Shown piece by piece: positions 29,790 through 64,000 of a DNA stretch of 64,000 nt. This DNA comes from Aphanocapsa lilacina HA4352-LM1 (GTDB taxonomy: Bacteria; Cyanobacteriota; Cyanobacteriia; Gloeobacterales; Gloeobacteraceae). Every line of letters begins with the position of its first letter. Within the stretch, counting starts at the first letter, position 1. The translations under genes were made by a program, and so were the position numbers. The DNA lies in the NCBI GenBank assembly GCA_019359725.1, contig JAHHGR010000004.1, forward strand, positions 1-64,000, read 5' to 3'. The notes under the pieces are model-generated. The model was not told the DNA's origin and did no database searches. It saw only the letters and a list, made by a program, of their open reading frames with translations.

Positions 29790-30578
29790 TCAAATCAAAA
29801 AAGGGCCGAGGCGGGCCGCCATACTTTCGAGTTGTTCTTTCACCATTGGCGGGTCAAAAATATGGCCGCCCGGGAGCATCTGCAGGGCAAACGCGCCGCT
29901 GGTCTGCTCCCGCCAAGCCGCCAGTTGTGCGTGGGTGACGACCGTGTCGTGCGCACCGCCGTAGACATATACGGGACAACCAAGCGGCGGCTCCGGCTGG
30001 TAAACGTAGTGCTCCGTAAGTTTTAAGTCGGCCCGCAAAATGCCCAGGTAGTGTTCCCGCCACTTCGGGTGGGCCAGCAGGGCTTCGGGGGTGCCGCCGA
30101 CTTTGCGCACCCAGGCCACAAGCGCCGCCTCCGAAAGCACATCGCCCGCGGGCATCGGGGAGGTCAGTTGCGGCGCCCGGCGGCTGGCCACCATCAGACA
30201 GACCGGCGGCGGCAGGTGCCGCCGCCGCAACTGCCGCGCCAACTCGAAACCGACGAGCGCCCCCATGCTGTGCCCAAAAAAGGCAAAAGGCCGGTCGAGG
30301 TGGGGGGCGATGATCGAGGCTATCGCTTCGATCAGTTCCGGCAACCGGCAGGGCATCGGCAACCGGGTCAGGTTCTCACGGCCGGGCAATTGGCAGGGCC
30401 GCACTTCGATCGCCGCAGGCAGCGATTCGCGCCAACCGCGGTAGACCGACGCGCCGCAGCCCGCGTGGGGAAAACAGAACAGCCGCAGCCGGGCACGCGG
30501 ATTCGGGGTGCACCAGCGGAACCACTCCGCTGCGGCAAAAAGCGGCAAGGCCGTGAAATGATCGATCGGTGAATTCAT
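29790..30578 (-). CDS. Type II thioesterase (GrsT/SrfAD-like), last gene of the cluster
   Basis: A 262-residue alpha/beta hydrolase. It opens with the family block RLRLFCFPHAGCGASVYRGW, has the nucleophile Ser in FGHSMGALVGFELARQL, the acid in GGAHDTVV and the catalytic His in LPGGHIF. Such enzymes remove misprimed or finished acyl chains from carrier proteins. ATG 30578 overlaps the P450 stop as ATGA; the longer frame is not used. Because it is a separate protein, it may edit carriers or release the final product. Confidence 0.92.
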   Translation of the reverse strand: MNSPIDHFTALPLFAAAEWFRWCTPNPRARLRLFCFPHAGCGASVYRGWRESLPAAIEVRPCQLPGRENLTRLPMPCRLPELIEAIASIIAPHLDRPFAFFGHSMGALVGFELARQLRRRHLPPPVCLMVASRRAPQLTSPMPAGDVLSEAALVAWVRKVGGTPEALLAHPKWREHYLGILRADLKLTEHYVYQPEPPLGCPVYVYGGAHDTVVTHAQLAAWREQTSGAFALQMLPGGHIFDPPMVKEQLESMAARLGPFLI

Positions 30579-31831
30579 CGGCCAAACCGTACAGGAAGAG
30601 ACTTCAGCCCACGCAGGATGAAGCTGTGGTCCAACCACTCGGGGCAATCACTCAGCAATTCCAACTTCTCAAAGCGAGCGAGCAACACGCGCAAAGCCAC
30701 CTGGGCCTCCAGTTGGGCGAGGACGGCACCCAGACAATGGTGCATGCCCTGCCCAAAAGCCAGATGCGCAGTGTCGGTGCGGGCGATGTCGAAGCGGTCC
30801 GGTTGGTCGAAGCGGGCCGGGTCACGATTGGCCGCCCCGAGACAAAGCAGCACCTGCTCACCCGGTTTGACGGTCCAACCGCCCATTTCCACGGTTGCAG
30901 TCGCCCGGCGCTTGGTCTGCTGCAACGGGCTTTCATAGCGCAGCATTTCGCTGACGGCAGCACCCATCGTTTCGGGGTGCCGCCGAAGACGCTCCAGTTG
31001 TTCGGGGTGCTGCAGCAGCGCGAGCAGACCGTTGGCGATCAAACCGCGGGTGGTTTCGTGGCCGGCCACGAACATCATGATGCAACTGAAGACGATCTCC
31101 GCCTCGCTCAAGCAACCGTCTTCGAGCCGCCCGGCACCCAGGGCGCTAATCAGATCGTCGCCGGGCCGCCTGCGCCGCTCGCAAAGCAGGGCCTCGAAAA
31201 AAGTGATCGCCTCGCAAAGCACCGCCTGGACCCGGGGGAAATCCGCCCCGGCCATCAGCCCCGGCTCCAGCAGATAGCGCAGTTGATGGGTCCACTCGCG
31301 CACTGTCTGCCAACTGGCAGGCGGTAGCGCCATCGATTCGGCCATAAATTGCAGCGGCAGCCTGTCGGCAAAATCGGCGACCGCATCCATCCGGTCGGCT
31401 GTACTCACCCGGTCGAGCAGTTGGGTGGCCACCCGAGCGATGTGGGCCTGCTCCTGCTCGAGCGTCCGGCGCTTGAGCGCCCTGACGACCGGATGGCGAA
31501 GACGGGTGTGGTCGGGTTCATCGGTAAAGACAATCGATTTGGCGGCCAATTGGGCCAGCGGATTGGTCTGTGCTTGCGCAGGACTTTCGCTGCGCTGGCG
31601 GACCGACTGCGGAATCTGGCTGGAACTGAAGCGCGGATCTTTGAGCACGGCGATCACATCGGCGTGGCGCGTCAGTACCCACATGCCCAGGCTGCGGTGG
31701 ACAGGCACTGCCTCCCGCAGACGGGCGTAAACGCGGTAAGGGTCGCGGCGAAACTCCGGATCGAAGGGGTTAAACCGCAAGGGTCGCTCGGCGGGCGGGC
31801 GGGATGCTGGGGCCATGGTCGGTTCGGTCAT
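30575..31831 (-). CDS. Cytochrome P450 (first of two)
   Basis: A 418-residue bacterial class I P450. The I-helix is MFVAGHETTRGLIANG, the ExxR is EMLRY, and the heme loop is FGQGMHHCLGAVLAQLE with the axial Cys near 364. No reductase or ferredoxin is encoded nearby, so cellular partners are needed. ATG 31831 overlaps the methyltransferase stop (ATGA). It probably hydroxylates or epoxidises the carrier-bound chain or the released product. In polyyne clusters a P450 commonly follows the desaturases. Confidence 0.93.
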   Translation of the reverse strand: MTEPTMAPASRPPAERPLRFNPFDPEFRRDPYRVYARLREAVPVHRSLGMWVLTRHADVIAVLKDPRFSSSQIPQSVRQRSESPAQAQTNPLAQLAAKSIVFTDEPDHTRLRHPVVRALKRRTLEQEQAHIARVATQLLDRVSTADRMDAVADFADRLPLQFMAESMALPPASWQTVREWTHQLRYLLEPGLMAGADFPRVQAVLCEAITFFEALLCERRRRPGDDLISALGAGRLEDGCLSEAEIVFSCIMMFVAGHETTRGLIANGLLALLQHPEQLERLRRHPETMGAAVSEMLRYESPLQQTKRRATATVEMGGWTVKPGEQVLLCLGAANRDPARFDQPDRFDIARTDTAHLAFGQGMHHCLGAVLAQLEAQVALRVLLARFEKLELLSDCPEWLDHSFILRGLKSLPVRFGR

Positions 31832-32718
31832 GACGGGCGGCTCCAGTGCGAACGGATCGGTCGCAGCACCAGGCGCAGCAACCCGATTTTGCCCATGCGA
31901 AAGCCCACGGCCGACAACTTCAAATAGCGCTCGTAGCGCTCGACCACCGGCTCCCCCACCAGGGTGACGGCCTCTTCGCGCCGGGAACGCAAACGGGAAA
32001 GCCACGCTTCGCAGGTGCGGGCATAGTCCAGGCGGTCGTTGCGCAGTAGGGCAAGCTCAAACAAACCGTCGCTGGCTGCGACGATCTCCTCCAAACGCGG
32101 CAATTCCGAGTCGGGAAAGATTTCTGACTGGATAAAGCGGTTGGCTTCTTCGGGGCGGAGCGTCCCGTAGGCAATCGTTTGCAAGGACAGTCGCCCCGGG
32201 GCTGAAAGCCACCGGTGGCAGCGCTCAAAAAAGGCGCGATAGACCCGAATTTTCTCAGGGCTCGATTGATCCGGTTGGGCAAAATGCTCGAACGCGCCAA
32301 TCGAGACAATGGCATCGTAGGCTGCGGTAGGAGTGTGCGCAGTCCAGCTTTCTGTGCGCACCTCGACGCCGGTAAGCCCCAAGGAGCGGAGGTAAGATGC
32401 CTGCGCTTCGCTGAGGGTGAGACCCACAGCCCGCCGCACCCCATAGACCCCCGTCATTCGCCCCAGCAGTGAGCCCCAACCGCAGCCAATATCGAGGGTG
32501 CAAGCGGCACCGACGGCACCGGCGGCGCGAATAAAAAAATCGAGCTTCTGCTGTTGGGCGAGCGACAAAGGCAGATCGGGAGCATCCGCCTCCCACAGGG
32601 CGCAGGAGTAGGTCATCGACTCATCCAGCCAGAGACTGTAAAAGGCGTGGCTGACATCGTAATGGTGGCGGATCCCCTCGGCCGAGCCGCCCCAGGTTTG
32701 AGCGGACAACTCGCTCAC
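31828..32718 (-). CDS. Cyclopropane/mycolate-synthase-like SAM methyltransferase
   Basis: About 296 residues from the GTG at 32718, which lies within GTGA at the ACP stop. It has the CMAS-type substrate segment IRHHYDVSHAFYSLWLDESMTYSCALWE, the SAM loop LDIGCGWGSLL, and IVSIGAFEHF with the Glu-His of the active site. The C-terminus (YERYLKLSAVGFRMGKIG) follows the CMAS pattern. Relatives add a methylene or methyl group across a cis double bond. Placed directly after an ACP and a desaturase gene, it probably acts on an ACP-bound unsaturated acyl chain. Confidence 0.88.
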   Translation of the reverse strand: MSELSAQTWGGSAEGIRHHYDVSHAFYSLWLDESMTYSCALWEADAPDLPLSLAQQQKLDFFIRAAGAVGAACTLDIGCGWGSLLGRMTGVYGVRRAVGLTLSEAQASYLRSLGLTGVEVRTESWTAHTPTAAYDAIVSIGAFEHFAQPDQSSPEKIRVYRAFFERCHRWLSAPGRLSLQTIAYGTLRPEEANRFIQSEIFPDSELPRLEEIVAASDGLFELALLRNDRLDYARTCEAWLSRLRSRREEAVTLVGEPVVERYERYLKLSAVGFRMGKIGLLRLVLRPIRSHWSRPS

Positions 32719-32999
32719 GGTTGCACCGGCTGGGCCGACGACACTGGCAGTTTCCGGCCATAGAGATGTTGCGACATCGCGTCGATCGTCGGGTATTCGA
32801 ACAGCAATGACGGCGATAGTTCCAGCTCCAGCCACTCCTCCAGTTCACTGACCAGCGATACCACAATCGCCGAGTCGAGGCCGAAGCGTTCAAAATCGGT
32901 TTGAACGTCCACTTGCTGAGCGTCCACATTCAGAAAATCGCCGATATAGGCTTGCATCCACTCGGCGATGGCAGATTGGGAAACGGAAATGTCCATCAT
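32715..32999 (-). CDS. Stand-alone acyl carrier protein (DSA type)
   Basis: A 94-residue carrier protein. The phosphopantetheine Ser is in DFERFGLDSAIVVSLVSELEEWL, followed by helix III (SLLFEYPTIDAMSQHL). Two ATG codons lie at 32999 and 32996; the longer frame has no support. It lies between a desaturase and the CMAS-like gene, with its stop overlapping the latter. It probably carries their common substrate. Confidence 0.88.
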   Translation of the reverse strand: MMDISVSQSAIAEWMQAYIGDFLNVDAQQVDVQTDFERFGLDSAIVVSLVSELEEWLELELSPSLLFEYPTIDAMSQHLYGRKLPVSSAQPVQP

Positions 33000-33037
33000 G
33001 GCAAAACTCCTTGTCTGTAGTCGTTGCAAGCTGTCGC

Positions 33038-33997
33038 TCAAGCCCGCTTCAGCCGGATTTGCTCCTCGGAGGGCACCTTCACATCCCAGGCCAACCCCAG
33101 TCGCGCCAAAAGCCAGATGAGCCAGTAGCCGGGGTCGAGGCGGTACCAGGCGAGGCCGAAGGCGGCGGAAGTGGGAAAGGCGTGGTGGTTGTTGTGCCAG
33201 GATTCACCAAAACTGACCAGCGCCAGCACGGCACTGTTGCGGCTGTGCTCGCGCGTCGCAAAAAGCCGGGGGCCGAAGCTGTGCAAAAAAGAATTGATCG
33301 ACCAGATGATATTGCCCAGGACAAACATGCGCACCGCCCCACCCCAGAGAAACCCGAGCAGCAGCCCGGCAACATGGCCGTGCAGCCACCAGCCCACCAG
33401 CGAGGGGATAGCGAGGCCCAGCAGCACCCACCAGAGATACAGACCGTTGACCTGCAGCAACGACCGGTCGCGCAACAAATCCGAGGCATAGCACACGACG
33501 TTGGGATACTCGTGTTGCCGCATCCAGAGCAGATGGGCGTGCAGCAGACCGCGCAGGCGGCCTACCGGATCTCGACCGTGCAGGTTGGGCGAATGGGGAT
33601 CGCCGGGCTGGTCGCTCAATTCGTGGTGGCGCCGGTGCAGCGCCACCCAGGAGATGACCGAGCCCTGGCCGGCCATCGAGCCCGAGACGGCCAGCAGCGC
33701 CTGGACCCAGGGAGCCGCGCTGAAGGAGCGGTGGGTAAACAGACGGTGGTAGCCGACGGTGACGCCGAAGCCGGTCACCAGCCACAAACCCAGCAACAAA
33801 CTCCCCTCGATGGGGCCGGGGGGCCAGACCCACGACAGTGCCACCGCCGCCACGGTCCCGATCGCAGGCAGAATATCGAAGAAAAAGAAATGCCGCCTCT
33901 GGTAGCGATGAATGTACGGATCGTCAAGAACGTCTCGCCGTCGGGTCAAACGGGTCCAGCCCTTGACGGACTCGGGCTGCTCGGCAGGCTCTGGCAT
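33038..33997 (-). CDS. Acyl-lipid/acyl-ACP desaturase (copy D, next to fusion gene)
   Basis: A membrane di-iron fatty acid desaturase of the DesC/Delta9 type, 319 residues. All three histidine boxes are intact: GYHRLFTHRSF, HRRHHELSDQPGDPHSP and ESWHNNHHAFP. About four membrane helices are present. ATG 33997 is the family start. In such clusters, relatives can work as acetylenases, and the choice cannot be read from the boxes. The upstream gene is the CMAS-SABATH fusion (38 bp gap) and the downstream gene an ACP. Confidence 0.92.
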   Translation of the reverse strand: MPEPAEQPESVKGWTRLTRRRDVLDDPYIHRYQRRHFFFFDILPAIGTVAAVALSWVWPPGPIEGSLLLGLWLVTGFGVTVGYHRLFTHRSFSAAPWVQALLAVSGSMAGQGSVISWVALHRRHHELSDQPGDPHSPNLHGRDPVGRLRGLLHAHLLWMRQHEYPNVVCYASDLLRDRSLLQVNGLYLWWVLLGLAIPSLVGWWLHGHVAGLLLGFLWGGAVRMFVLGNIIWSINSFLHSFGPRLFATREHSRNSAVLALVSFGESWHNNHHAFPTSAAFGLAWYRLDPGYWLIWLLARLGLAWDVKVPSEEQIRLKRA

Positions 33998-34035: not shown

Positions 34036-36048
34036 TCAATTTCTGGCCAAAACAAGCTGCAACTGCACTTGTTCGTAGACAAACGCTCGCGGACTGCGGG
34101 CGATGCGGCTGTGTACTGCGGCGTAGTAATTCTCCAGCCAGCGCGCTCGGTCGCGAAAAAGGGTTTGGGCAAACAGCGGTTCGCTGAATGCCCGGATGAA
34201 GGCCGTGTACGCCTGCGCGTACTCCTGGAGATTGCCGCTCTGCCGGTAGCGGGTGTAGAGAGGACAGGGCAGAGCCTGCACCTCGGCATGCTCGACGGTA
34301 TATTGCTCTACCAGCGGCGAGCCGGGTTCCTGGAGCGGGGCGAGCACCTCCGCCAGAGACGGGCAGTAGGTGGGATAGAAAAAGTCGTGGTATTGCTGGC
34401 GATCGAGGGTGCCGTCTTCCACCATTGCGAGGAGCACCTGGTTCATCAGTTCGGTCGTCATCAATCCACTGATTTTCTCGCCGTCGATCCCTGCCAGTTC
34501 ACCGGCATCCGCCCGCCCGAGCATCAACAGCACCAGCCGTCCACCGGGCCGGGTTTCTTGAGCCCGGCAGGACAAAAAAGCCGTCAGATCCTGGCGGGAT
34601 TGCGCGGCGAAAGCCTCGCGCACCGGCCCCCTGGCCCATCCGGAGTAGGTGTGTTCCGGAAAGTGCACCACAGGCAGACGGCTTAACCAGTGCAAAGCGG
34701 TCGACGAGAGGCCGAAACTGGCTGAGCCGCTGGGGAGGATCTGGCCGTAGAACGAACGGCCGGCGGCGAAGACATAGATTGGACACCCGTTGGCCGTCTC
34801 CAGGCAGCACTCAGTAGAGCCCAGGTTGCGGAACAACCCGTTGAAATTGTTGGTGGGCAGGTCGTTGTGGATGACACAAATGGTCGGTTGGAGATCTTCT
34901 CGGCCGGCAAGGGCGTCGAGAGCCCACTGGACGGCCATCAGGGAGTTCCGGCCTTCGCAGCAGCCGTAATCGACGATCGTAAACGGTCGGCTGTCCGTGG
35001 GCGGCGGGATGCGGCGGACCGCTCCGGCAATCAGCGCCTGCGCCGAGACTAGAGCGAGCTTTTGAGAGTCGGAGTGCGCGTCGTAGAAACCTCCCCCCTG
35101 CATGCCGGGAGTCGCCGCCGACCTTGCCCTGGTATCTGGACTTTGCCAATCGTGCGTCGTCTGGTGGTCGCCTTGCTGCTCAAAAAGTCGGTCGTTGCGG
35201 CGCAGGGTAATGCGCAGCAGGTGCATAGCCCTGGTGCGAAAGCTGAGCACAAACAGCGCCAGATACTTCTCGTATCGGCTGACCGCCGCCTCCCCGACCA
35301 GGGCCACGGCCTGCGCCCGGTGCGATTTCAAGCGCGTCAGCCAGCTTTGGCAGGTGAGCCGGTAATCCTCCGCGTCGTTGCGCAAAGCGATCACTTCGAA
35401 CGTGCGCGCGCTCGCTTGGGCGATCTCCATCAGGGTCGGCAAGTCCGATTCGGGGAAGATCTCGCTGGAGAAAAATGGATGCATCTGCTGCTTGGGGACG
35501 TTGCCGTAGGCGATCGTCTGCAGCGAGAGCCGACCGCCGGGCGGCAGCCAACCGTGGCAACGTTCGAAAAACTCGCGGTAGACTTGCCCTTTTTGCGCAC
35601 CGGTGAGCTCCGGTCTGGCGAAGTGCTCGAAAGCGCCCACGGAGATGATCGCGTCGTAAGGTTCTTCCGGCGCATGGTCCTGCCAGCTTTCGAGCCGGAC
35701 TTCGATGCGCGGATGGCCAAAAGCGGCGATCCAGGTGGCCTGGGTTTGGCTCAGGGTGAGTCCGACGGCCCGGGCGACACCGTGCGCCCCGACCAACGAC
35801 CGCAGTGTTCCCCCCCAGCCGCAGCCGATGTCCAGGACCCGGCCGCCCCCCGCGGCCTGGGCTTCGCGGATGTGATGGTCGATCTTGCGGGCCTGGGCCT
35901 CCTCCAGCGTGCCGTCTGCTTCCCAAAGCCCGCAGGAATAGGTCATGCTGCTGTCGAGCCACAGCCGGTAAAATTCGTCTCCCAGGTCGTAGTGGTATTG
36001 AATGGCCTGCGCCGAGGCGCAAGCCTGGGCCGTCGCAGCGGTATTCAT
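34036..36048 (-). CDS. CMAS-like methyltransferase fused to a SABATH carboxyl methyltransferase
   Basis: A 670-residue fusion. Residues 1 to about 290 are a CMAS-type enzyme (IQYHYDLGDEFYRLWLDSSM, SAM loop VLDIGCGWGGTL near 70, ISVGAFEHF). After a linker, residues about 320-670 match the SABATH family, the plant-type salicylate/jasmonate/indole-acetate carboxyl methyltransferases. They show the opening GFYDAHSDSQKLAL, SAM loop IVDYGCCEGRNSLMAV, NDLPTNNFNGLFRNLG near 393, and SFYGQILPSGSASFGLSSTALHWLS near 430. SABATH enzymes turn free carboxylates into methyl esters. ATG 36048 overlaps the preceding desaturase stop. Fusion of both activities in one chain is unusual. One reading is chain methylation or cyclopropanation followed by carboxyl capping. 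Confidence 0.9.
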   Translation of the reverse strand: MNTAATAQACASAQAIQYHYDLGDEFYRLWLDSSMTYSCGLWEADGTLEEAQARKIDHHIREAQAAGGGRVLDIGCGWGGTLRSLVGAHGVARAVGLTLSQTQATWIAAFGHPRIEVRLESWQDHAPEEPYDAIISVGAFEHFARPELTGAQKGQVYREFFERCHGWLPPGGRLSLQTIAYGNVPKQQMHPFFSSEIFPESDLPTLMEIAQASARTFEVIALRNDAEDYRLTCQSWLTRLKSHRAQAVALVGEAAVSRYEKYLALFVLSFRTRAMHLLRITLRRNDRLFEQQGDHQTTHDWQSPDTRARSAATPGMQGGGFYDAHSDSQKLALVSAQALIAGAVRRIPPPTDSRPFTIVDYGCCEGRNSLMAVQWALDALAGREDLQPTICVIHNDLPTNNFNGLFRNLGSTECCLETANGCPIYVFAAGRSFYGQILPSGSASFGLSSTALHWLSRLPVVHFPEHTYSGWARGPVREAFAAQSRQDLTAFLSCRAQETRPGGRLVLLMLGRADAGELAGIDGEKISGLMTTELMNQVLLAMVEDGTLDRQQYHDFFYPTYCPSLAEVLAPLQEPGSPLVEQYTVEHAEVQALPCPLYTRYRQSGNLQEYAQAYTAFIRAFSEPLFAQTLFRDRARWLENYYAAVHSRIARSPRAFVYEQVQLQLVLARN

Positions 36049-37037
36049 CGGCCTTGCCTCCTGGCGGCGATCGTTGCTTGGCTCGGAATCTTTACCTCCC
36101 AGACCAGGCCGACAGCAGCGAGCAGCCGAATGCACCAGCCGCTCGGGTCGATCTGCCACCACTCCAGACCAGTCACAGCCGAGCTGCAAAAGGCGTGGTG
36201 GTTGTTGTGCCAGGACTCGCCCAGGGTAGGAAGAGCGAGCCAGGCGTTGTTGGTGCTCAAATCTCCAGTGGCGAAAGGGCGATCACCCAGCAGGTGGCAG
36301 ACGGAATTGAGGGCGCCGATGTAGAGCTGGTGCACCAGGAAGATGCGGACCATTCCACCCCACAGCAGCCCCTGCAGGGCTCCCATCCAGGTCGCGCTTG
36401 CCAGTCCTCCCACGAGGGCGGGAAGCAACAGCCCGAGCAGCACCCAGAGGTAGTACCGGCGGCTGAGGCGGCTGACATCGAGATCGCGCAGCAGATCTCG
36501 GGCCAGGAGTGCGCAGTTGGTAATTTCGCTGTCGAGCATCCAGCCGGTGTGGGCGTGCCAGAGGCCCGGCAGCCGCCCAAGCGGCCGGTCGGCTTTGAGA
36601 TAGGGCGAATGGGGATCGCCGGGCTCGTCCGGGAAATGGTGGTGGAGGCGGTGGGTGGCAGCCCAGTAGACGAGCGGTCCGGAGGCGGCCATTCCACCTA
36701 GAACCGCCAGGCTGACCCGCACCGGTGGACTCGCCTTGAAGGCGCCGTGGGCGAAGTGGCGATGGTAGCCGACTTCCAGGCCGAACACCGTCAGGACGTA
36801 CATCCCCAGCAGCAATGCGACATCCAGAAGCCGAAGCGGCTGGAAGGCCAGCAGGCCCAGGGCCGCCAGGGTTCCCAGGGCGGGAATCCCAAGGGTCACC
36901 AGGCCCACGCTCCGGTAGCGGGCCTGCAGATGGGCGTTGGCGGTCGTTACCCGCACTTTGCCGCCGGGCAGATATTTGGACGAGGGCGCAGGAAAGTGGT
37001 CGGTTTCCATCGTCGAGCCGGGATAGAGGTACAGCAT
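36045..37037 (-). CDS. Acyl desaturase (copy C, after KS-ACP-TE)
   Basis: A DesC-type membrane desaturase of 330 residues. The boxes are GYHRHFAHGAF, HRLHHHFPDEPGDPHSP and ESWHNNHHAF, all intact. The ATG at 37037 lies 2 bp after the PKS stop. A second ATG at 37010 is an alternative, and neither has a clear ribosome site. The stop overlaps the fusion-gene start (ATGA), which ties the two proteins translationally and suggests consecutive steps. Confidence 0.92.
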   Translation of the reverse strand: MLYLYPGSTMETDHFPAPSSKYLPGGKVRVTTANAHLQARYRSVGLVTLGIPALGTLAALGLLAFQPLRLLDVALLLGMYVLTVFGLEVGYHRHFAHGAFKASPPVRVSLAVLGGMAASGPLVYWAATHRLHHHFPDEPGDPHSPYLKADRPLGRLPGLWHAHTGWMLDSEITNCALLARDLLRDLDVSRLSRRYYLWVLLGLLLPALVGGLASATWMGALQGLLWGGMVRIFLVHQLYIGALNSVCHLLGDRPFATGDLSTNNAWLALPTLGESWHNNHHAFCSSAVTGLEWWQIDPSGWCIRLLAAVGLVWEVKIPSQATIAARRQGR

Positions 37038-37039: not shown

Positions 37040-39913
<2,874 letters not shown>

Positions 39914-41254: not shown

Positions 41255-41510
41255 TTAGGCGCCGAGGTGTTCGGCGACCGATTCGATGTTGATGAATTCC
41301 CAAAAGAGGGTAGGTTCAAGATCGCGACCGAGCCAGTTGCCCATCTCCGTGGTGACGGTGACGGCTACGGAGGAATCGAGGGCGTAGTCGCTAAAGGGAA
41401 CGGCAATGTCGATGCGTTCTGCCGCAATGCCCAGAAACTGGGCCAGGCGGGCAGCCAACCAGGCTTCGATTTGCGGCGCCGTCGGGCAATCGCCGCAAGG
41501 CCGGATACGG

Positions 41511-41530
<20 letters not shown>
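41255..41530 (-). CDS. Stand-alone acyl carrier protein (LDSS type)
   Basis: A 91-residue carrier. Ppant Ser in FSDYALDSSVAVTVTTEMGNWL, and helix III is FWEFINIESVAEHLG. ATG 41530 lies inside the end of the AT-less KS gene (20-bp overlap), so this ACP is probably the partner of that KS, which has no carrier domain of its own. The N-terminus includes PCGDCPTAPQ, an unusual Cys pair. Confidence 0.88.
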
Positions 41531-43384
<1,854 letters not shown>

Positions 43385-43385
<1 letters not shown>

Positions 43386-57100: not shown

Positions 57101-60100
57101 TTGGGTCCGAGATCCAGCCCCGCTTCGCGGATGCGCCGGTAGAACGCTTCGAGCGCTTCCGGGCTGAGGGGGGCGGCAAAATCGGGCCGGTACAGCTTCT
57201 GGGTGTCCGTTGCGCGCACAAGCTCACCGGTGGCGAGCACTTTCCAGTCGGCTTCGCCCGCTTCGGCGCGCTCCTTGCCGCAACACACCTGAAAAGTAGC
57301 CCGGTCCGCTCCATCCGGTTCGAAGATCAGCTGCACGAGGCGCTCCTCGCCGTCAAACAGCGTGAAGGCCTCCTGGATCAACACGTCCTGCAGGGTGTAG
57401 GCACCCTCGCCGAGGACGGCGCCCGCGGCGGCGATCGCCATCGAGATGTACGAGGCTCCCGGTACGACCACGACACCGTGCAGGCGGTGATCGTCGAGAA
57501 AGGGCTGACGGGCGACGCCGACGCGCGCCTGAAACTGGACCTGCTTGAGGGGCGAGGGCAGGCGCCCGCCCAGCATCGCCTGGGGAGCCCCGTCCGCGGC
57601 GAGGGCGACATCGTCGGCCCGGCTCGCAGGCGGGACGTCGAGCCAGTGGCGCTCGCGCTGCCAGGGATAGAGGGGCAGATCGGCACAAAAGCGCCCCTGC
57701 GGGGCAAGGCGTTCCCAGGCGATCGGGAAGTCGAGGGTGTAGAGCGTGCCCAGGGCCGCCAGCAGCGCGGGACGCTCCGGCTCCTTGCGGCGCAGCGAGG
57801 CCAGAACAACGCCTTCTTGGCCCGCCTGCTCCAGGCATTGGCGGATCGCACCGCCCAGTACCGGATGGGGGCTCAACTCCAAAAAGACGGTATAGCGATC
57901 GGCTATCAGCGCTGCGACCGCCTCGGCAAAGCGCACAGGCTCCCGGAGATTGCGCCCCCAGTAGACCGCTTCGAACTGCCCGCCTGCGGCACTTTCGCCG
58001 GTGAGCGTCGAGTAGATCGCCACCGCGGCGGGGCGGGGGGACAGACCGGCCAACAGAGCGCTCAGTTCCCGCGCGAACGGCTCCATCGGCGGGCAATGGA
58101 AGGCATAGTCCACCGGGAGATATTTGTGATAGACGTCGCGGCGCTCCAGAATCGCCACCACTTCCGCCAGGGCCGCACTTTCGCCGGACAGCACCGTCGA
58201 GGTGGGACTGTTGACGGCGGCAAGCGAGACACGGTCGCAAAAGTTCTCGATCAGTGTCTCCGCCTGGGCCGCGGGCAACTCCACCGCCACCATCCGCCCC
58301 CGGCCGGTCGCCTGCTGCATCAGCCGCGCCCTGTGCACAACAATGCGCACCGCCTCTTCGAGGGTCAGTACCCCGGCGATGTGGGCTGCGGCCACCTCCC
58401 CGACACTGTGGCCGACCACGCCGTCCGGTGGGACCCCCCAGCTGCGCCACAGGTCCGCCAAACCCACCTGCAGGGCAAATAGAGCCGGTTGGGCAAACTC
58501 CGTCTGCGCAAGGCGCGAATCGGCCTCCGATGCGCGCAATGCTTCCAGCAGCGACCAGTCTGCGTATTCGCGCACAGCAGCGTCACAGCGCTCGACGGCG
58601 GCTTTAAACAGCGGCTCGTGCTCCAGCAGTTCCCGTCCCATCGCCCACCACTGTGGACCCTGGCCCGAGCACACAAAAGCGATCCTCGGGCGGCGTTTGC
58701 GCGGTTGCCTGCCGCTCACCACGCCGCGGTGCGGCTGGCCCCGGCCAAAATCCTCCAGACGCTCGCCCAGTTCGGCAAGGGTGTGGGCGACCACGGCGAG
58801 GCGCTCGCCGTGGTGGTTGCGGCGCAACCCGGCGCTATAGGCAAGATCCGCCAGGGCGGGAAGCGCCCGGTCCGAGCGCAGCCACGCGCGGTACGCCGAA
58901 GCCAGATCCTGCAAAGCTTGGGCTGTGCGGGCCGACAGAGGCACCAGATACGCCCGGGCGTCGGCCTGCGGCGCGGCGGGGGCGGGCAGCGGCAGGGCGG
59001 GCGCCTCCTGCAGAATCACATGGGCGTTCGTGCCGCCAAAGCCAAAGGAGCTGATCCCGGCAAGGGCCGGTTGCGACGCTTGCGGCCAGGGAACGAGGCT
59101 ACCCAGGACCCGCACCGGCAGCCGCTCAAACGGGATGTGGGGGTTGGCCTGCTCGAAGTGCAGACTCGGCGGGATCTGCCGATGCTGCAGCGACAGCGCC
59201 ACTTTGATGATCCCGGCGATCCCGGCGGCGGCCTCCAGGTGGCCGATGTTCGTCTTGACCGAGCCCAGCAGACAGGGATTGTCCGGGGAGCGCCGGCCAG
59301 CCAGCACTGCGCCCAGGGCCAGCACTTCGATCGGATCGCCCAGGGGGGTGCCGGTGCCGTGGGCTTCGACGTAGCCGATCGCTTCCGGCGGCACTCCGGC
59401 GGCGGCGAGGGCCTCCCGGATGACCGCCTGCTGCGCCAGACCGTTCGGCGCCGTCAGGCTGCTGCTGCGCCCATCTTGGTTGAGGGCGCAGCCCGCCACC
59501 AGCGCCAGCACCCGGTCCCCGTCGCGCTCGGCGTCCGCCAGGCGCTTCAAGATCACCGCACCGCAGCCTTCGCCGCGGACGTACCCGTTGGCACGGCTGT
59601 CGAAGGTGCGGCAGCGCCCATCGGGCGAGAGCATCTGCGCCTCAGAAAAGATAATCGTCAGGTCCGGAGAGAGCAGCAGATTGACGCCACTGGCCAGGGC
59701 CAGATCCGATTCGCGGTGGGCCAGACTCCGGCAGGCCAGGTGCAAAGCCACCAGCGAAGAGGAGCAGGCCGTGTCGACCGCCAGGCTCGGGCCGCGCAGA
59801 TCCAGCAGATAGGACAGGCGATTGGCGGCGATGCTGAAGGCGTTGCCGGTGCCGACCAGGGCGTCGAGCCGGTCGGGAGATCGCCTGTTGACCCGCGTAT
59901 AGTCCTGGGTGCATATCCCCACGAACACCCCCGTCCGGCTGCCTGCGAGGCGCTCCAGGGGCAGTCCCGCCTGCTCGAAGGCGTCGCAGGCCACCTCCAG
60001 CAACAGCCGCTGCTGCGGATCCATCAGCCGCGCTTCGCGGGGGGTGATCCCAAAAAACTGGTGGTCGAAGCGATCGACCGACTCCAAAAACCCTCCCCAG

Positions 60101-60279
60101 CGCGTGTTCATCGTTGCGGGGGTTCGCCTGTGGGGGTCGTAGAAGGCATCCACATCCCACCGCTCCGCCGGAACTTCACCGATGGCATCGACGCCGTCGC
60201 ACAACAATTGCCAGTAAGCCTTCAGGTCGCTCGCCCCCGGAAAACGGCAACCCATACCGATGATTGCGATAGGTTCCAT
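54121..60279 (-). CDS. Type I polyketide synthase, KS-AT-DH-KR-ACP-TE
   Basis: A 2052-residue synthase. KS about 1-430 (Cys in AVDTACSSSL; EAHGTGT; NIGHLEAA). AT about 515-810, with GHSVGEVAAAH near 626 and YAFHCPPME. DH about 895-1170, with HRLHGVVVVP near 930 and DSCLQ. KR about 1300-1610, with TGGLGNLG near 1430 and the Tyr in GQGNYAAANA. ACP with Ser in GLDSLMTTEL near 1743. TE about 1815-2052 with GHSLGALVCFELARRL. No enoyl reductase or methyltransferase domain is present, so full reduction would need the PfaD-type protein or the quinone-oxidoreductase-type protein. The AT region carries YAFH rather than HAFH, so malonyl specificity is not certain. It starts 3 bp after the ACP stop. Confidence 0.95.
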   Translation of the reverse strand: MEPIAIIGMGCRFPGASDLKAYWQLLCDGVDAIGEVPAERWDVDAFYDPHRRTPATMNTRWGGFLESVDRFDHQFFGITPREARLMDPQQRLLLEVACDAFEQAGLPLERLAGSRTGVFVGICTQDYTRVNRRSPDRLDALVGTGNAFSIAANRLSYLLDLRGPSLAVDTACSSSLVALHLACRSLAHRESDLALASGVNLLLSPDLTIIFSEAQMLSPDGRCRTFDSRANGYVRGEGCGAVILKRLADAERDGDRVLALVAGCALNQDGRSSSLTAPNGLAQQAVIREALAAAGVPPEAIGYVEAHGTGTPLGDPIEVLALGAVLAGRRSPDNPCLLGSVKTNIGHLEAAAGIAGIIKVALSLQHRQIPPSLHFEQANPHIPFERLPVRVLGSLVPWPQASQPALAGISSFGFGGTNAHVILQEAPALPLPAPAAPQADARAYLVPLSARTAQALQDLASAYRAWLRSDRALPALADLAYSAGLRRNHHGERLAVVAHTLAELGERLEDFGRGQPHRGVVSGRQPRKRRPRIAFVCSGQGPQWWAMGRELLEHEPLFKAAVERCDAAVREYADWSLLEALRASEADSRLAQTEFAQPALFALQVGLADLWRSWGVPPDGVVGHSVGEVAAAHIAGVLTLEEAVRIVVHRARLMQQATGRGRMVAVELPAAQAETLIENFCDRVSLAAVNSPTSTVLSGESAALAEVVAILERRDVYHKYLPVDYAFHCPPMEPFARELSALLAGLSPRPAAVAIYSTLTGESAAGGQFEAVYWGRNLREPVRFAEAVAALIADRYTVFLELSPHPVLGGAIRQCLEQAGQEGVVLASLRRKEPERPALLAALGTLYTLDFPIAWERLAPQGRFCADLPLYPWQRERHWLDVPPASRADDVALAADGAPQAMLGGRLPSPLKQVQFQARVGVARQPFLDDHRLHGVVVVPGASYISMAIAAAGAVLGEGAYTLQDVLIQEAFTLFDGEERLVQLIFEPDGADRATFQVCCGKERAEAGEADWKVLATGELVRATDTQKLYRPDFAAPLSPEALEAFYRRIREAGLDLGPKLQGVRQVERRDGEALGYLQLPEGLEAEALLYQIHPVMLDSCLQVLAGALPTAGEQAFHGNDVHIPVHFERIRYHGSPARGQLRSHVRMRPREQQQSGTLTGDYVLYDAQDRVVLEIDGLLMKRASREALLNIMQSNDWFYELAWQPLPLPAPQIATRPPGRWIVLSGNSALGADLATRLEAQGHSSVRVVASEQFAILEPARHYALNGQKPEDFRRLLREIASCNGLPLLGVVHLWSLEEASGPALWESALHLVQALVLAESQAPLWLVTRGTQALGQPLGERAVEHNALWGLGRVIALEHPELWGGLVDLDVEPGRDEAARLLAQLQAPDGEDHVAWRGEERLAARLVQTRQGRTAASAPPDWESGGYLVTGGLGNLGLQVARWMVEQGARHLALVGRRAPSPEAEAALAGLRKLGAQICVLQADICDPHQAQAVLEHFGDGLPPLRGIVHAAGVLDDGLLVQQNRERFAAVLAPKVQGAWHLHTLTRQLDLDFFVLFSSVAGLLGSPGQGNYAAANACLDALAHHRRALGLPALSINWGPWAEGGMAAALSRRHQERIAAQGVSAIPVQRGLKALEWMLRQAVPAQLGVLPVRWAKFVQPFLPGRLPSLLRQIAREVQPRQSAAVQAPSGGAELAQQLRSIGFEPCYALLLTHLRGQLAQVLGLAPSHSFDLEQPVNELGLDSLMTTELKRRIEGELGVNVPVVLLLQNPSLSQLAWKLAQQVAADAPAVPTSQTAAGRDNPWLVRPRPNPGARLRLFCFHYLGGGASTFRQWPEGLPADVEVCAIQLPGREERLEEPPVADFFALIATLAEQIGPELDRPFAFYGHSLGALVCFELARRLRRQSGALPVHLFAAAYYAPHLRTPSQGTGVSGWTDARLREEIPRVISAPQSLMDNAEFMQVLLPRVRADACLLSTHLYTEEPPLDCPITAFGGLQDAVVDRESLAAWSAHTNGAFQLEMFAGNHIFLESAREAVLGAVAAGLLAAPSAH

Positions 60280-60282
60280 GGG

Positions 60283-60594
60283 CTAAATCTCCCGCCGATG
60301 AGCCGTCGCCTCGATCTCCTCCACCAGCCACCCGGCCAGGGCTTGGATTGTCGGATAATTCCACAGCACCGTCGGCGAAAGTGCAAAGCCTACCTGCTTT
60401 TCCAATTTGCCCAGAAGCACCAGAGCCTGCACAGAACTTAAACCGTAACTGCCGAGCGGTTGCCGAAGGTCGATGTCCTCAGGATCGATTTGCTCTTCTT
60501 CGAGACTTTCGACGAGCAAGGAGATAATTAACTCCTGCAATGCTTCCGCGTTTGCCAGCTCTTTTGAAGCCAATGAATACGGTGGAGCGTTCAT
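60283..60594 (-). CDS. Stand-alone acyl carrier protein (GLSS type)
   Basis: A 103-residue carrier with Ppant Ser in LGSYGLSSVQALVLLGKLEKQVG. Ser replaces the usual Asp of the DSL motif, a variant seen in carriers that serve FAALs. Helix III is LWNYPTIQALAGWLVEE. It sits 36 bp after PfaD and 3 bp before the synthase, so it probably delivers the starter or an intermediate to the synthase. Confidence 0.88.
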   Translation of the reverse strand: MNAPPYSLASKELANAEALQELIISLLVESLEEEQIDPEDIDLRQPLGSYGLSSVQALVLLGKLEKQVGFALSPTVLWNYPTIQALAGWLVEEIEATAHRREI

Positions 60595-60630
60595 GCAGTC
60601 TACCTCAAGAAAATAGATAGTTTGCTTTCC

Positions 60631-62274
60631 CTAACGCGTAGGAAGGTACCGGCAGTAGGCGGGCGGCAGTTGAAGACCCTGACTTCTTAAATGCTGTACC
60701 CGGTACAAAAAAGCAGCTCCCAGCATCAACTGTCCAGCCACATCGACAACTGTGCGATTTTCAGGCACGCCCAGGTAGGTGCCTTTGACCCAGTCGTTAA
60801 AGGCACCCATCGATGGTCCACACCAGATCTGATAATCCATCTCCCGACCCTTTTCGCCGAGGTTAGACCAGCGCGAAGAAAGGCCCAGATACCAGCGGAA
60901 GATCAGGGCCATTTTGCGCCTGGGGTTGCCCTCGGCTTTTTCGATTTGCTGTGGATCGCGATGGCTGAAATAAGCAATGGTTTCCTGCCAGATCTGTTCG
61001 AGGCTTTTTTTAAATATTTGGGATTCGAGTTTTTGAATTTCGGCGGCCGGGATTTCTTCGAGAGCGCCGTAGGTCTTGTACAACTCGTAGAGTTTCTGGG
61101 CGCGCATCGCAAACAAGGTTTCGCGTTTGAGCACCTGCAGTCTGACCCCCAACTCGAACATGTCCGCCGCCGGGGCCATCGTCACATCGGTCGTCTCCGC
61201 CCTGGCCAGCAGGGCACGGGTGTGGGCGGAGGTACCCGCCTCGACGCAGGCCTGGTTGACCGAGCCGGTCACGACGTACGCCGCCCCCATCATGAAGGCC
61301 GCCAGAACGGCCTGCGGCGTGCCGATCCCGCCTGCTGCCCCGATGCGCGTCGGCTGGGCGAAGCGCTGTTGTGCCTGGATCTCGTCGCGTTGGGCCAGGA
61401 TCGAAGGCAGCAGGCACACCAGGGCACGGTTGTCGGTGTGACCGCCGGAATCCGCCTCGACAGTGATATCGTCCGCCATCGGCACTTTGCCCGCCAGGGT
61501 CGCCTGCAAAGGCGAGAGCCGACCCGCCTCGACGAGTTGCCGCAGCAGTGCTTCAGGTGCCGGCTGCAGAAAGCGGCCCGCCACCTCCCGGCGGGAGACC
61601 TTCGCAATCACCCGGTTGGCAACCGCGATCCGCCCAGCCGGATCGAGCCCCAACCCCGCCGCGCGGTAGTGAACGATCTCGGTTGTGAGATCGATGTAGG
61701 CGCTCGCCTCGACGGTGCGCACGCCACCTTCGAGGTACACCCGCACCGCCCCCGCCTCCAGGGCCGGTTCGCTGGGGCTGTGGATCAAATTGAAGGCGTA
61801 GGGTCCCTCCGGCAGCGCCGCCTGAATGCGTCTGATCGCCGCGGCGATCCGATCCGGCACCAGACCGGCTGCCCCGAAACTGCCAAGCATACCGGCCCGG
61901 CCCACGGCGATCACCAGTTCCTCCGAGGCGATGGCGTTGGCCATTGCCCCGGTCATGTACGCACAGCGGACCCGATGGGCGGCCAGAAAAGCGGGATCGC
62001 CCAGGGAGTGCAAAGGCATCGCCGGCACAAAGGCCAGCACCTCCGGCAGATCGGCTTCCTCGGCGGCCCTCAGCCACGACCCGCCTCTTGCCAGACCGAT
62101 CCGGCCTTGTTGGCGAACGGCATAGCAGGGCACGTCGCTATCGCGCAAAATCGAGCGGATACCGGGTTCATCGAAGGCGACCGCATCGGCAGGACCGCTC
62201 CAGACCTGCCCGGTCTTCGGCGCGCTGCCTGCGTGGCGCACATCGGTGTCACAAACCGTTGTAGAGATAGGCAT
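60631..62274 (-). CDS. pfaD: PfaD-family trans-acting enoyl reductase
   Basis: A 547-residue FMN-dependent TIM barrel of the PfaD/trans-ER group, used by polyunsaturated fatty acid synthases and trans-AT polyketide synthases. Recognisable blocks are MTGAMANAIASEELVIAVGRAGMLGSFGAAGL, DDITVEADSGGHTDNR, IGAAGGIGTPQAVLAAFMMGAAYVVTGSVNQ, and the C-terminal helical part with YLGLSSRWSNLGEKGREMDYQIWCGPSMGAFNDWVKGTYL. ATG 62274 shares its A with the stop of the upstream acyltransferase (TAATG). Longer upstream frame is not used. Confidence 0.93.
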   Translation of the reverse strand: MPISTTVCDTDVRHAGSAPKTGQVWSGPADAVAFDEPGIRSILRDSDVPCYAVRQQGRIGLARGGSWLRAAEEADLPEVLAFVPAMPLHSLGDPAFLAAHRVRCAYMTGAMANAIASEELVIAVGRAGMLGSFGAAGLVPDRIAAAIRRIQAALPEGPYAFNLIHSPSEPALEAGAVRVYLEGGVRTVEASAYIDLTTEIVHYRAAGLGLDPAGRIAVANRVIAKVSRREVAGRFLQPAPEALLRQLVEAGRLSPLQATLAGKVPMADDITVEADSGGHTDNRALVCLLPSILAQRDEIQAQQRFAQPTRIGAAGGIGTPQAVLAAFMMGAAYVVTGSVNQACVEAGTSAHTRALLARAETTDVTMAPAADMFELGVRLQVLKRETLFAMRAQKLYELYKTYGALEEIPAAEIQKLESQIFKKSLEQIWQETIAYFSHRDPQQIEKAEGNPRRKMALIFRWYLGLSSRWSNLGEKGREMDYQIWCGPSMGAFNDWVKGTYLGVPENRTVVDVAGQLMLGAAFLYRVQHLRSQGLQLPPAYCRYLPTR

Positions 62275-64000
62275 TATCGGCTCCCTGACGAGTGCTCCGT
62301 GGCCTGGACGGGTGCGTCGAGCACCTGCTGAGCGGCGGCAAGCTGCAGCTGGAGAATTGCGCCCCATTGCCTGAGCGACACGGCCCGCTGTTCTAGAAAA
62401 CTGCTGTGCGCCCGGCTGGCTGTAGCCGTCTGCACCAGGGAGGTCTCCCACGGCGGCGGGGGGAGCGGCCCTTGAACGGTCGCGCCGGGCCGCTGCTCCG
62501 GCGCGCTCCCGCGCTCGCCCGCCGCTTCGAGCGGCGGCGAGCGCGGCTCAAGTCGGTCGCCACCCAGGACTATCGTTTTGGAGAGTGTTTTTTGAGCCGC
62601 GGCGCCGCCCGCAGCGCCCCGCTCCAAAGTCGTCAGATCCACCGGCACCCGATGACTGACCAGGGCTGCCAGTAGGCGCACAATCGAAACCTGCTCGCTG
62701 ACGCCGCGCTGGTCGATCTGGAGGCTGAGGTGCGGGCGATCTCCGAGAATGGCGGCAATCCAGCGGGCACAACCGCCGCTCGGCCCGACCTCGATAAAGC
62801 ACCGGTGACCATCCTCGTACACCCGTTCGACCAGGCGCGGAAAATCGACGCGCCGGCACAGATTGGCCGTCAGGGCCGTGGCGATGGACTGCGCCTCCAG
62901 ATCGATCGGGGCGTACCCGGCCGTCGAGTAGAACGCCAGCTCCGGCTTCCCCTGGATTGCCACGGTGGTCAAGCGCGCAATCTCCTCAGAGCGGGAGCGC
63001 ACCGCCTCGCAGTGCAGCACGCCGTCGAAGGGTGCGCGCACCGCACCGCATCCCAGGTGCTCGATCAGCCGTTGGCACTGGGCGCTATCCCCGGCGATCA
63101 CCACCTCGCCGGGGGTATTGACGTGGGTCAGGTAGACGCGCTCGTGCTCCGTCAGGGCTTGCTCGACCGCCCCCGCCGGGGCGAGCAGCACGAAGCTGCT
63201 CCACAAGTCTGAGGTTGCTTGCTCGGGGGCGATGGCCCAGTGTTCGCGCGCCGCCAGCTTCGGCCCGGCCAGGCAGCGGGTGAACAACGGCGAGGCGCGC
63301 AGGGGCTTGCACAGCGCGTCGCAGTCCGCCCAGACCCCAAGGGCGCTCAGCATGCTCGTCTCCCCAAGGCTGTAGCCGAAAGCTGCCTGGGGTTGCACTG
63401 CGAATTCGCGCTGCAAGATGCTGGTGTACAGCGCCGCGAAAGCGAGCCCGGAGTCGATCATCGCCAATGGATCGGCCAGCAGGCGTTGCTCGTGGGCGAT
63501 CCGCTCTCTGGCGGACAGGGTACTCAGGCTCCTTGGATAGAGGAGCTTTTCGCGCGTCAACAGAGCGGCATCTTCGCTCAGTTCGTCGAGGCGCCGGTGG
63601 CAGCGGGGAAAGCGGTACAGCAGATCCTGCCCGAGGCCGGGGTAAGTATTGAACGCGCCGGGGTAGACGAAGGCGACCCGGGTTTGCCGCCCGAGCGGCT
63701 CGACGGTGAAATAGCTGCCCACGGGGGTCTTCCAGGTCTTGCCCTGCTCAAAGGCCGCGGCGATGCCTTTGTAGGCGCGGCGCAGCTGGCCTGTCACTTC
63801 CTCGCGGTCGTGGCCGACGATAGCGAGAGCGTAGGGCAGATCAGGGCGGCTGCGGTAGGCTGCGTGGCAGCGCCGGGCCAGGACTTCGAGGGCTTGATTT
63901 TCGGCGAGCCGGGCTTCCAGTTGCTCCAGCTGCGTCTGCAGATCGGCGCGGTCGGCCGCGGCGATTACCAGCAGATGCGGTCGAAAGGGCGGGCCTGCTG
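62274..64000 (-). CDS. PfaB-type acyltransferase protein (5' part outside window)
   Basis: Open frame from the TAA at 62274-62276 to the right edge without a stop; at least 575 residues. It contains an AT domain with the Ser in FGYSLGETSML (Tyr replacing the usual His of GHS), LTHVNTPGEVVIAG, and a C-terminal FIEVGPSGGCARWI instead of the usual FLELSPHPVL. These are features of PfaB acyltransferases from polyunsaturated-fatty-acid synthases. The last 110 residues are a Pro-rich linker and a Gln-rich helix. Its pairing with PfaD is the usual arrangement. It may serve the AT-less KS proteins. A KS-like N-terminal part, if any, lies beyond the window. Confidence 0.88.
   Translation of the reverse strand, partial: AGPPFRPHLLVIAAADRADLQTQLEQLEARLAENQALEVLARRCHAAYRSRPDLPYALAIVGHDREEVTGQLRRAYKGIAAAFEQGKTWKTPVGSYFTVEPLGRQTRVAFVYPGAFNTYPGLGQDLLYRFPRCHRRLDELSEDAALLTREKLLYPRSLSTLSARERIAHEQRLLADPLAMIDSGLAFAALYTSILQREFAVQPQAAFGYSLGETSMLSALGVWADCDALCKPLRASPLFTRCLAGPKLAAREHWAIAPEQATSDLWSSFVLLAPAGAVEQALTEHERVYLTHVNTPGEVVIAGDSAQCQRLIEHLGCGAVRAPFDGVLHCEAVRSRSEEIARLTTVAIQGKPELAFYSTAGYAPIDLEAQSIATALTANLCRRVDFPRLVERVYEDGHRCFIEVGPSGGCARWIAAILGDRPHLSLQIDQRGVSEQVSIVRLLAALVSHRVPVDLTTLERGAAGGAAAQKTLSKTIVLGGDRLEPRSPPLEAAGERGSAPEQRPGATVQGPLPPPPWETSLVQTATASRAHSSFLEQRAVSLRQWGAILQLQLAAAQQVLDAPVQATEHSSGSR

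Follow-up and report, generated by a model that had tools for sequence, protein, structure and literature searches.

The first 64,000 bases of contig JAHHGR010000004.1 of Aphanocapsa lilacina HA4352-LM1 (the window; the contig measures 100,666 bp and the draft genome 4.2 Mb) contain the downstream part, two thirds of the whole, of a 51-kb biosynthetic gene cluster of Gloeobacter that combines fatty acyl-AMP ligases (FAALs), membrane desaturases, C1 transferases of the CMAS family, polyketide synthase (PKS) genes and Pfa-type genes. Genes were called on the whole contig with a dicodon-based caller, which returned 78 genes, and domains were assigned by Pfam scans of all 32 genes of the cluster run (g31-g62) and by NCBIfam models with curated cut-offs. 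The 32 genes all lie on the minus strand (contig 29790-80771), a run length that random reassignment of the strands did not reach in 10,000 trials (longest shuffled run 24). An earlier interpretation of the window (the sequence-only reading) had described 24 consecutive minus-strand genes from position 29790, which gene calls and Pfam bear out as g31-g54. While the single direction it reported is correct, its extent of 34 kb was set by the window edge, which falls inside g54, and the other 17 kb were missed. Its upper limit of 49 bp for the gaps is exceeded as called at g45/g46 and g52/g53 (89 and 90 bp), values that depend on the start codons: an alternative upstream ATG of g52 at 60594 brings the latter gap to 36 bp, and the frame of g45 is likewise open upstream. 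The ATGA, GTGA and TGATG junctions it listed are present. The run has one 268-bp gap, at g58/g59, and ARAGORN found no tRNA in the window.

At the downstream end lie, in order, a membrane desaturase (g35, 33038-33997; PF00487, three His boxes), a free acyl carrier protein (ACP; g34, 32715-32999; PF00550), a CMAS-family C1 transferase (g33, 31828-32718; PF02353), a cytochrome P450 (g32, 30575-31780) and a type II-like thioesterase (TE; g31, 29790-30578; PF00975, motif GHSMG). The adjoining g36 (34036-36048) fuses a CMAS domain to a SABATH carboxyl methyltransferase domain (PF03492). It is preceded by a second desaturase (g37, 36045-37037), a ketosynthase (KS) protein with ACP and TE domains and no acyltransferase (AT) (g38, 37040-39913), a second P450 (g39, 39934-41205), a free ACP (g40, 41255-41530), a further AT-less KS (g41, 41511-43385), another free ACP (g42, 43385-43672) and two more PF00487 desaturases (g43, 43706-44659; g44, 44664-45641). 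The desaturases g35, g37, g43 and g44 are orthologues of gll1938, gll1940, gll1946 and gll1947: in Gloeobacter violaceus PCC 7421, which carries the cluster and places the window in this genus, the cluster desaturases lie at exactly the coordinates given for these genes in PMC2593844, a desaturase survey of 2008 cited here from extracts of its text. The survey lists all four and places four G. violaceus desaturases in the JamB clade; it was the only paper found by a locus-tag search of the open-licence literature.

Next comes a FAAL (g45, 45664-47367; PF00501 and PF23024) whose start is uncertain and may lie upstream. It is followed by an MDR-family oxidoreductase and possible trans enoyl reductase (g46, 47457-48467; quinone_pig3 model below cut-off), an acyl-CoA ligase (g47, 48455-50053; NCBIfam ligase models below cut-off), a phosphopantetheinyl transferase (PPTase; g48, 50050-50817; PF01648) that is Sfp-like by length and motifs, an FAD-dependent oxidoreductase or monooxygenase (g49, 50804-52282), a second FAAL (g50, 52324-54078; PF00501 and PF23024), a type I PKS with catalytic motifs and the organisation KS-AT-dehydratase (DH)-ketoreductase (KR)-ACP-TE (g51, 54121-60279), a free ACP (g52, 60283-60594; PF00550), a PfaD-type enoyl reductase (g53, 60631-62241; PfaD_N, and TIGR02814 at 654 bits against a cut-off of 449) and the PfaB/C- or HglC-like g54 (62274-66605), of which the window holds the C-terminal part to 64000. 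Beyond the window the run continues with a KR-DH protein (g55, 66593-69043), a KS-AT-ACP protein (g56, 69088-72978), two small proteins that match no Pfam family (g57, of 55 aa, and g58), a 4HBT thioesterase (g59, 73791-74243), a TonB receptor (g60), a phosphoesterase (g61) and an FMO (g62), with which it ends at 80771. On the opposite strand the cluster is adjoined by g63 (81486-85079), whose large product, inspected by eye, shows WD40-like repeats and an N-terminal part resembling an NTPase; it is conserved in all three cluster-bearing Gloeobacter.

The domain inventory of the sequence-only reading was reproduced by Pfam: four PF00487 desaturases, four free ACPs, three KS proteins besides g54, PfaD, two CMAS domains, one of them fused to SABATH, two P450s, a PPTase, an acyl-CoA ligase and three PF00975 thioesterase domains (g31, g38 and g51). 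The two genes it named FAALs encode AMP-binding proteins; among the specific NCBIfam models those for fatty acyl-AMP ligases match them best, though none reaches its curated cut-off. By contrast g54, its PfaB type, scores above the PfaB family cut-off (153.9 versus 144.3 bits). For g49, named an FAD monooxygenase, the FAD-enzyme matches are all sub-cut-off, and its tblastn relatives are annotated as FAD-dependent monooxygenases. The oxidoreductase g46 was absent from that inventory.

All 31 genes from g31 to g61 have colinear counterparts in G. violaceus PCC 7421 and in a second Gloeobacter genome (G003), in support of the proposal of a single large lipid/polyketide cluster in which FAAL/desaturase genes stand together with PKS and Pfa-type genes; g62 has no counterpart among the genes called in G003. 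In pairwise comparisons of the three species dN/dS was at most 0.45 for every gene and pair, with two exceptions in one pair each (g50, 0.61; g57, 2.41). Judged by these ratios, nearly all cluster genes are under purifying selection and kept functional. In a third congener (G002) neither a SABATH match nor a CMAS of the g33 subfamily was found, and desaturase matches did not exceed 43%; the cluster seems to be missing from it and thus not to be general to the genus.

Divergence is uneven along the cluster. Among the three species dS is 0.03-0.22 for g35-g61, whereas g31-g34 (and also g28) of the window genome differ from both other Gloeobacter by a dS of 0.57-0.94; between those two the values for g31-g34 are 0.10-0.43. 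The edge between g34 and g35 is sharp (29790-32999 versus 33038 onward), and identity to G. violaceus PCC 7421 and G003 is 93-97% over two further contig stretches. The high dS of g31-g34 beside the low dS of g35-g61 suggests that the ACP-CMAS-P450-TE end was probably swapped for a divergent allele in the window genome by recombination. Separately, a synteny breakpoint lies at about 22365-22585, where the corresponding position in G. violaceus jumps from 3.73 Mb (for 14352-22364) to 2.05 Mb (from 22585 on); its edge holds a repeat of about 135 bp, present in three copies in G003.

The five downstream genes recur in distant bacteria. Searches of plasmids by tblastn with desaturase g43 and with g36 both led to the same five replicons. 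Annotation and BLAST gave the order desaturase-ACP-CMAS-P450-TE-FAAL in Thalassospira marina, Pseudonocardia alni (read from the deposited annotation) and Rhodococcus opacus, and a genome scan found the arrangement in Nocardia vinacea too; the TE matches in N. vinacea and Rhodococcus are partial. This is the order of g35-g34-g33-g32-g31 with a FAAL in addition. The cassette proteins are 55-62% identical to g35, 54-59% to g33 and 38-52% to g32 (51-52% for the P450s of R. opacus and N. vinacea). Elsewhere in the cluster, g42 is 43-59% identical to cassette ACPs of four other genomes and g45 is 39-63% identical to cassette FAALs, the Veronia match being in pieces. In trees, g35 groups with its cassette counterparts from Rhodococcus, Nocardia, Pseudonocardia and Thalassospira (98/99) and g33 with the CMASs of the same four (94/94), with Sphingobium also inside. 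This colinearity of g35-g31 with FAAL-bearing cassettes across phyla, as read from gene order, identity and trees, is the main new finding.

The core set also occurs in other settings. Polaromonas JS666 carries FAAL-(insertion sequence)-desaturase (DES)-ACP-CMAS-DES-KS/ACP-KS, and a Scytonema metagenome-assembled genome (MAG) carries FAAL-DES-ACP-CMAS-CMAS-CMAS-FAAL/ACP-nonribosomal peptide synthetase (NRPS); variants of the FAAL-DES-ACP-CMAS set were found in a Solirubrobacteraceae MAG, Veronia and Tistrella. A CMAS profile built from a 10-row alignment gave some match in 366 of 388 genomes of the class. It exceeded 380 bits in seven: the three Gloeobacter, with two copies each, and four others (G169, G264, G371 and G223), the next best score being 184. 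All four of the latter carry FAAL, DES, ACP and CMAS in that order, with one extra gene between FAAL and DES in G223. Among the matches listed, four of the six named loci at least 42% identical to g33 have FAAL, DES and ACP nearby; a Streptomyces locus (L067) lacks this neighbourhood, and the match on L123, a contig of 4.2 kb, is partial. Downstream of the set in G264 (L153:11321-17849) a lipocalin, a desaturase, an FMO, a B12-binding radical SAM protein, an SDR and a GDSL hydrolase follow in one direction, and G169 has open reading frames of nearly equal lengths downstream of its cassette. On plasmid pSRL2 of Sphingobium indicum B90A (L061:10866-14746), an acyl-homoserine-lactone synthase, an ACP, a CMAS (53% to g33) and a FAAL stand in a row, which suggests a C1-modified, perhaps cyclopropyl, acyl-homoserine lactone signal.

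Both CMAS domains of the cluster score far above the PF02353 gathering score (198 and 203 bits versus 27). At position 180 (presumably CmaA1 numbering) Gln is found in all 10 alignment rows, and His in two solved mycobacterial enzymes; this His marks what we take to be the bicarbonate site of CMAS enzymes. Among 103 CMAS matches in the fetched loci, Gln is present at this position in 13 of the 14 near a FAAL versus 19 of the 89 others (Fisher p 3.7e-7, a value that overstates independence since the samples are related and partly selected). Three of the 14 are tandem copies on a single Scytonema contig, and five plasmid loci were chosen via the desaturase and CMAS searches. The association of Gln180 with FAAL proximity is best taken as a pattern, not as a measured probability. 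The SABATH domain of g36 scores 167 bits against a threshold of 29.8 and retains the S-adenosylmethionine (SAM) motif and, in the alignment, the conserved Trp of the family. Its best solved relative is the fatty acid O-methyltransferase 5f2k (E 2.2e-32), presumably of mycobacterial origin. A methylated, possibly methyl-esterified product had been predicted; enzymes for C1 transfer and carboxyl methylation are at hand, and the relation to 5f2k fits a methyl ester. No paper on a SABATH fatty-acid enzyme was found in the open-licence literature, among the matches listed. SABATH genes in 22 small-genome members of family f4, with one further fragmentary match, reach at most 89 bits versus 167-174 in Gloeobacter.

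The ketosynthases g38 and g41 have the active-site Cys and His motifs and no AT. Aligned to g51, g38 passes from the KS-AT linker through 17 residues to the post-AT linker; the linkers adjoin without an AT between them, and therefore an AT was lost. The scar, of about 180 residues, is common to g38 and g41. Compared in 30-residue blocks, its two copies show 90-100% identity in the window genome, 96-100% in G. violaceus and only patchy likeness in G003, with KS-part blocks 33-80% alike; this points to gene conversion of the AT-deletion scar. A malonyl-loading AT would have to act in trans for both proteins, the candidates being the ATs of g51, g54 and g56. In another Gloeobacteraceae genome (G005, L052) a FAAL, an ACP and a g51-like PKS are fused in one 2,679-aa frame, which favours the view that g51 is fed by g50 or g45 together with g52.

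The upstream part of the cluster had been labelled PUFA-type, after polyunsaturated fatty acid (PUFA) synthases, and the cut-offs of the PfaA, PfaB and PfaD models are indeed passed. Against the PfaA model TIGR02813, g56 scores 1349 bits (cut-off 1010), its best stretch covering model positions 4-1163, and g55 matches positions 1756-2581 at 464 bits, below cut-off; together the two form a split PfaA that carries one ACP. In g54, Pfam and motifs show two KS domains and, just under its gathering score (31.5 versus 32.7), an AT; it is a KS-chain length factor (CLF)-AT protein, a fusion described for HglC in the extracts of PMC3098273. In each of the three Gloeobacter its first KS reads VDAASAS, where Ser takes the place of the catalytic Cys, whereas two homologues in genome G007 keep Cys. 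We infer that only the KS of g56 condenses within this block. No FabA-type dehydratase/isomerase (DH/I) was found in g53-g56 (Pfam, E up to 0.001), and no tandem ACPs were found in PfaA, g56 having one PP-binding stretch; on these two grounds a classic PUFA synthase was rejected. The same extracts describe a heterocyst-glycolipid (hgl) Type F without DH/I. Pfam showed no glycosyltransferase in g31-g62, hence no hglT, and non-heterocytous hgl islands are described as being without hglT in the extracts of PMC11804610. By the lack of FabA-type DH/I and the one ACP in PfaA the block is nearer to hgl synthases than to PUFA synthases. A Type O synthase in G. violaceus is reported in PMC3098273, and an hgl island without known product in PMC11804610; as far as the extracts go, the locus meant in either paper may be another KS-AT locus. 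The source genome has further such loci (C69:1134-7720, C15:31466-40803 and C52:4840-7053), 33-36% identical to g51, the same level as g56, and the first of these has a G. violaceus counterpart (L051) with PfaA- and KR-DH-like genes and no FAAL or desaturase matches among the called genes.

Taken together, gene content, conservation, selection, catalytic motifs and the recurrence of the cassette, all observed directly, support a model to which we give a probability of roughly 0.6: the cluster would encode one pathway in which a desaturated, C1-modified, ACP-bound acyl chain is extended by AT-less KSs and a FAAL-fed PKS, released and methyl-esterified. Every reaction in this scheme, the order of its steps, the single product and the product's structure are proposals. 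FAAL g45 would adenylate a free fatty acid and load it onto ACP g42 (or g34), where the membrane di-iron desaturases g44, g43, g37 and g35 would each introduce one double bond. To these bonds a C1 unit from SAM may then be added by CMAS g33 and by the CMAS domain of g36, giving a cyclopropane or a methyl or methylene branch. The P450s g32 and g39 would hydroxylate the chain and, with the FAD and MDR enzymes, adjust its oxidation, and the AT-less KSs g41 and g38 would extend it with malonyl units. A second line, with FAAL g50, ACP g52 and PKS g51, could add one or more reduced units, and the reduced hgl-type synthase g56-g53 could make a fatty acyl chain that serves as a starter or building block. 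Release of the acid would fall to the TE of g38 or g51, and the SABATH half of g36 would methylate its carboxyl group; PPTase g48 would activate the carriers.

Several observations weigh against this scheme or its chemistry. The exchange of the presumed bicarbonate-site His for Gln may mean a C1 chemistry other than cyclopropanation, and the 19 of 89 CMASs that carry Gln lack a nearby FAAL. Two Streptomyces CMASs (L066, a 4.6-kb contig, and L067) fall inside the g33 clade without a FAAL nearby. In the tree the desaturases that belong to FAAL-DES-ACP-CMAS sets fall into more than one clade (7 changes), and therefore partners have been exchanged; the g35-g31 cassette itself has no adjacent FAAL of its own. 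Finally, the hgl-type block g52-g56, ACP included, occurs in G007 without FAAL, desaturase or CMAS counterparts among the called neighbours, so that it may serve a separate product. This last point, the 268-bp gap at g58/g59 and the many loci that, among the matches, have cassettes and no Pfa genes would all suit two or more independent neighbouring pathways with separate products, namely a lipid synthase of the hgl type (g53-g59) and a pathway built from the FAAL, desaturase, CMAS and PKS genes (g31-g52). We consider such a division unlikely, though it deserves to be taken seriously, given the common strand and short or overlapping junctions across g51-g54, the equal gene order and similarly low dS in three species, and the one PPTase in the run.

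A product with at least one triple bond, made by JamB-type desaturases acting as acetylenases, would make the locus a polyyne or alkyne cluster, and the sequence-only reading had called part of it polyyne-type. The jamABC-like FAAL, desaturase and ACP are there, as are several desaturases, TE and P450; PMC2593844, as cited above, puts four G. violaceus desaturases with JamB, and genome G011 has FAAL-DES-DES-KS of the jamaicamide type with desaturases that join g37 at 85/83. As probes we used a polyyne-type cassette on a plasmid of Streptomyces sp. Mg1, with seven genes by annotation and its third desaturase assigned by gene order. Two of its desaturases are 37-48% identical to Gloeobacter ones. 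In contrast, its rubredoxin gave a best E of 1.2 in the contig and 0.36 over three Gloeobacter stretches, and the third-type desaturase (CayE/PgnH-like) found no match better than E 2.5 in those stretches, so that the polyyne-type label did not hold. Membership in the polyyne cassettes was rejected on these two absences, of which that of rubredoxin alone is not decisive: the extracts of PMC8406139 describe 10 actinobacterial polyyne-clade genomes in which a P450 replaces TE and rubredoxin. CMAS is not among the seven genes common to four polyyne clusters in the same extracts, and g35 falls with the CMAS-cassette desaturases (98/99), as g44 does weakly (87/89, 85/88). An alkyne product is for these reasons improbable. 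That the cluster makes or modifies the ordinary membrane PUFAs of Gloeobacter (18:2, 18:3) is more improbable still, to the point of being nearly negligible. The PUFA content given for G. violaceus beside its Type O synthase in the extracts of PMC3098273 and the four desaturases would fit, but no FabA-type DH/I was found and the cluster is not general to the genus, G002 having no SABATH, CMAS-subfamily or >43% desaturase match; moreover, membrane lipids require no FAAL/ACP-linked logic, P450s or SABATH.

Returning to a single pathway with a C1-modified chain, the recurring set allows a broader proposal, which we make tentatively and at a little under even odds: FAAL-desaturase-ACP-CMAS may be an undescribed cassette, spread by horizontal transfer, that makes acyl-ACP starters with a cyclopropane or a C1 branch; it would then be the route that is still missing for medium-chain cyclopropane fatty acids. 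In Gloeobacter, an early-branching cyanobacterium, two such CMAS units would have been added to the AT-less KSs, the FAAL-fed PKS and the hgl-type synthase, and the resulting methyl-esterified lipid-polyketide would belong to a new class. No description of the set was found in the open-licence literature, among the matches listed, and the papers there on FAALs and cyclopropane pathways were mycobacterial, corynebacterial by title or unrelated. Of 11 that share the terms 'fatty acyl-AMP ligase' and 'cyclopropan', ten have mycobacterial or corynebacterial titles, and the other, PMC10849952, concerns halogenation in its extracts; term searches found no word starting 'cyclopro' and no 'CMAS' in the FAAL review PMC11837247, and no 'Gloeo', 'FAAL' or 'desaturase' in PMC13291983, a 2026 survey of hybrid PUFA-PKS-NRPS pathways. 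The same literature, among the matches listed, held no paper on the whole, in line with the earlier statement that no described pathway has all parts; that statement left unmentioned that parts were already in print (2008, 2011, 2025). Hybrid lipid/polyketide clusters are a known kind; the novelty lies in how the parts are combined here and, most of all, in the recurring FAAL-desaturase-ACP-CMAS set.

If the proposal is true, it supplies testable enzymes for two questions. In the extracts of PMC6213206 (2018) no cyclopropane fatty acid synthase (CFAS) is known for medium-chain acids, and those of PMC10180397, on lyngbyoic-acid-type biosynthesis, leave the cyclopropanation enzyme open. The four-gene cassette would be small enough for E. 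coli and would offer a handle to put cyclopropanes on polyketide or peptide starters. The extracts of PMC11804610 also ask for characterisation of G. violaceus lipids without known identity, a question on which a Pfa/hgl-type locus inside a FAAL/desaturase/CMAS/PKS cluster bears, in a thylakoid-less organism at the base of the class.

Compared with known systems, the locus shares parts with several. Bacterial polyyne clusters (cepacin, caryoynencin, protegencin) are alike in FAAL, ACP, multiple desaturases, thioesterase and P450, but here rubredoxin and the third-type desaturase were not found. In jamABC of the jamaicamide pathway (FAAL, desaturase, ACP), the FAAL loads a fatty acid onto a free ACP where the JamB-type membrane desaturase acts; here the unit includes CMAS and several desaturases, the Pfam matches include no NRPS domain or halogenase, and any acetylenase activity is putative. 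The proposed cassette would be the counterpart of jamABC for cyclopropanes instead of alkynes. The Pfa/hgl synthases (Types A/B, F and O in the extracts of PMC3098273, hgl islands in those of PMC11804610) are alike in split PfaA, PfaB, PfaD, KS-CLF-AT and, for Type F, the lack of DH/I; the locus differs from them in the one ACP in PfaA, the Ser of g54, the lack of a glycosyltransferase and the FAAL/desaturase/CMAS surroundings. With CmaA1, MmaA2 and bacterial cyclopropane fatty acid (CFA) synthase the CMASs of g33 and g36 share the PF02353 fold, the SAM site and Glu and Tyr at compared positions, whereas His is replaced by Gln, scores lie far below the NCBIfam equivalog cut-offs, and the gene context suggests ACP-bound instead of phospholipid or mycolate substrates. 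The fatty acid O-methyltransferase 5f2k, nearest solved relative in the SABATH family, differs in that the SABATH domain is fused here to a CMAS domain. Closest to the expected product of a FAAL-DES-ACP-CMAS cassette are lyngbyoic acid, majusculoic acid, grenadamide and other medium-chain cyclopropane acids of cyanobacteria and Labrenzia. For these the extracts of PMC6213206 propose a two-CFAS cluster beside metW-type genes and those of PMC10180397 a double bond from partial PKS reduction, with no desaturase.

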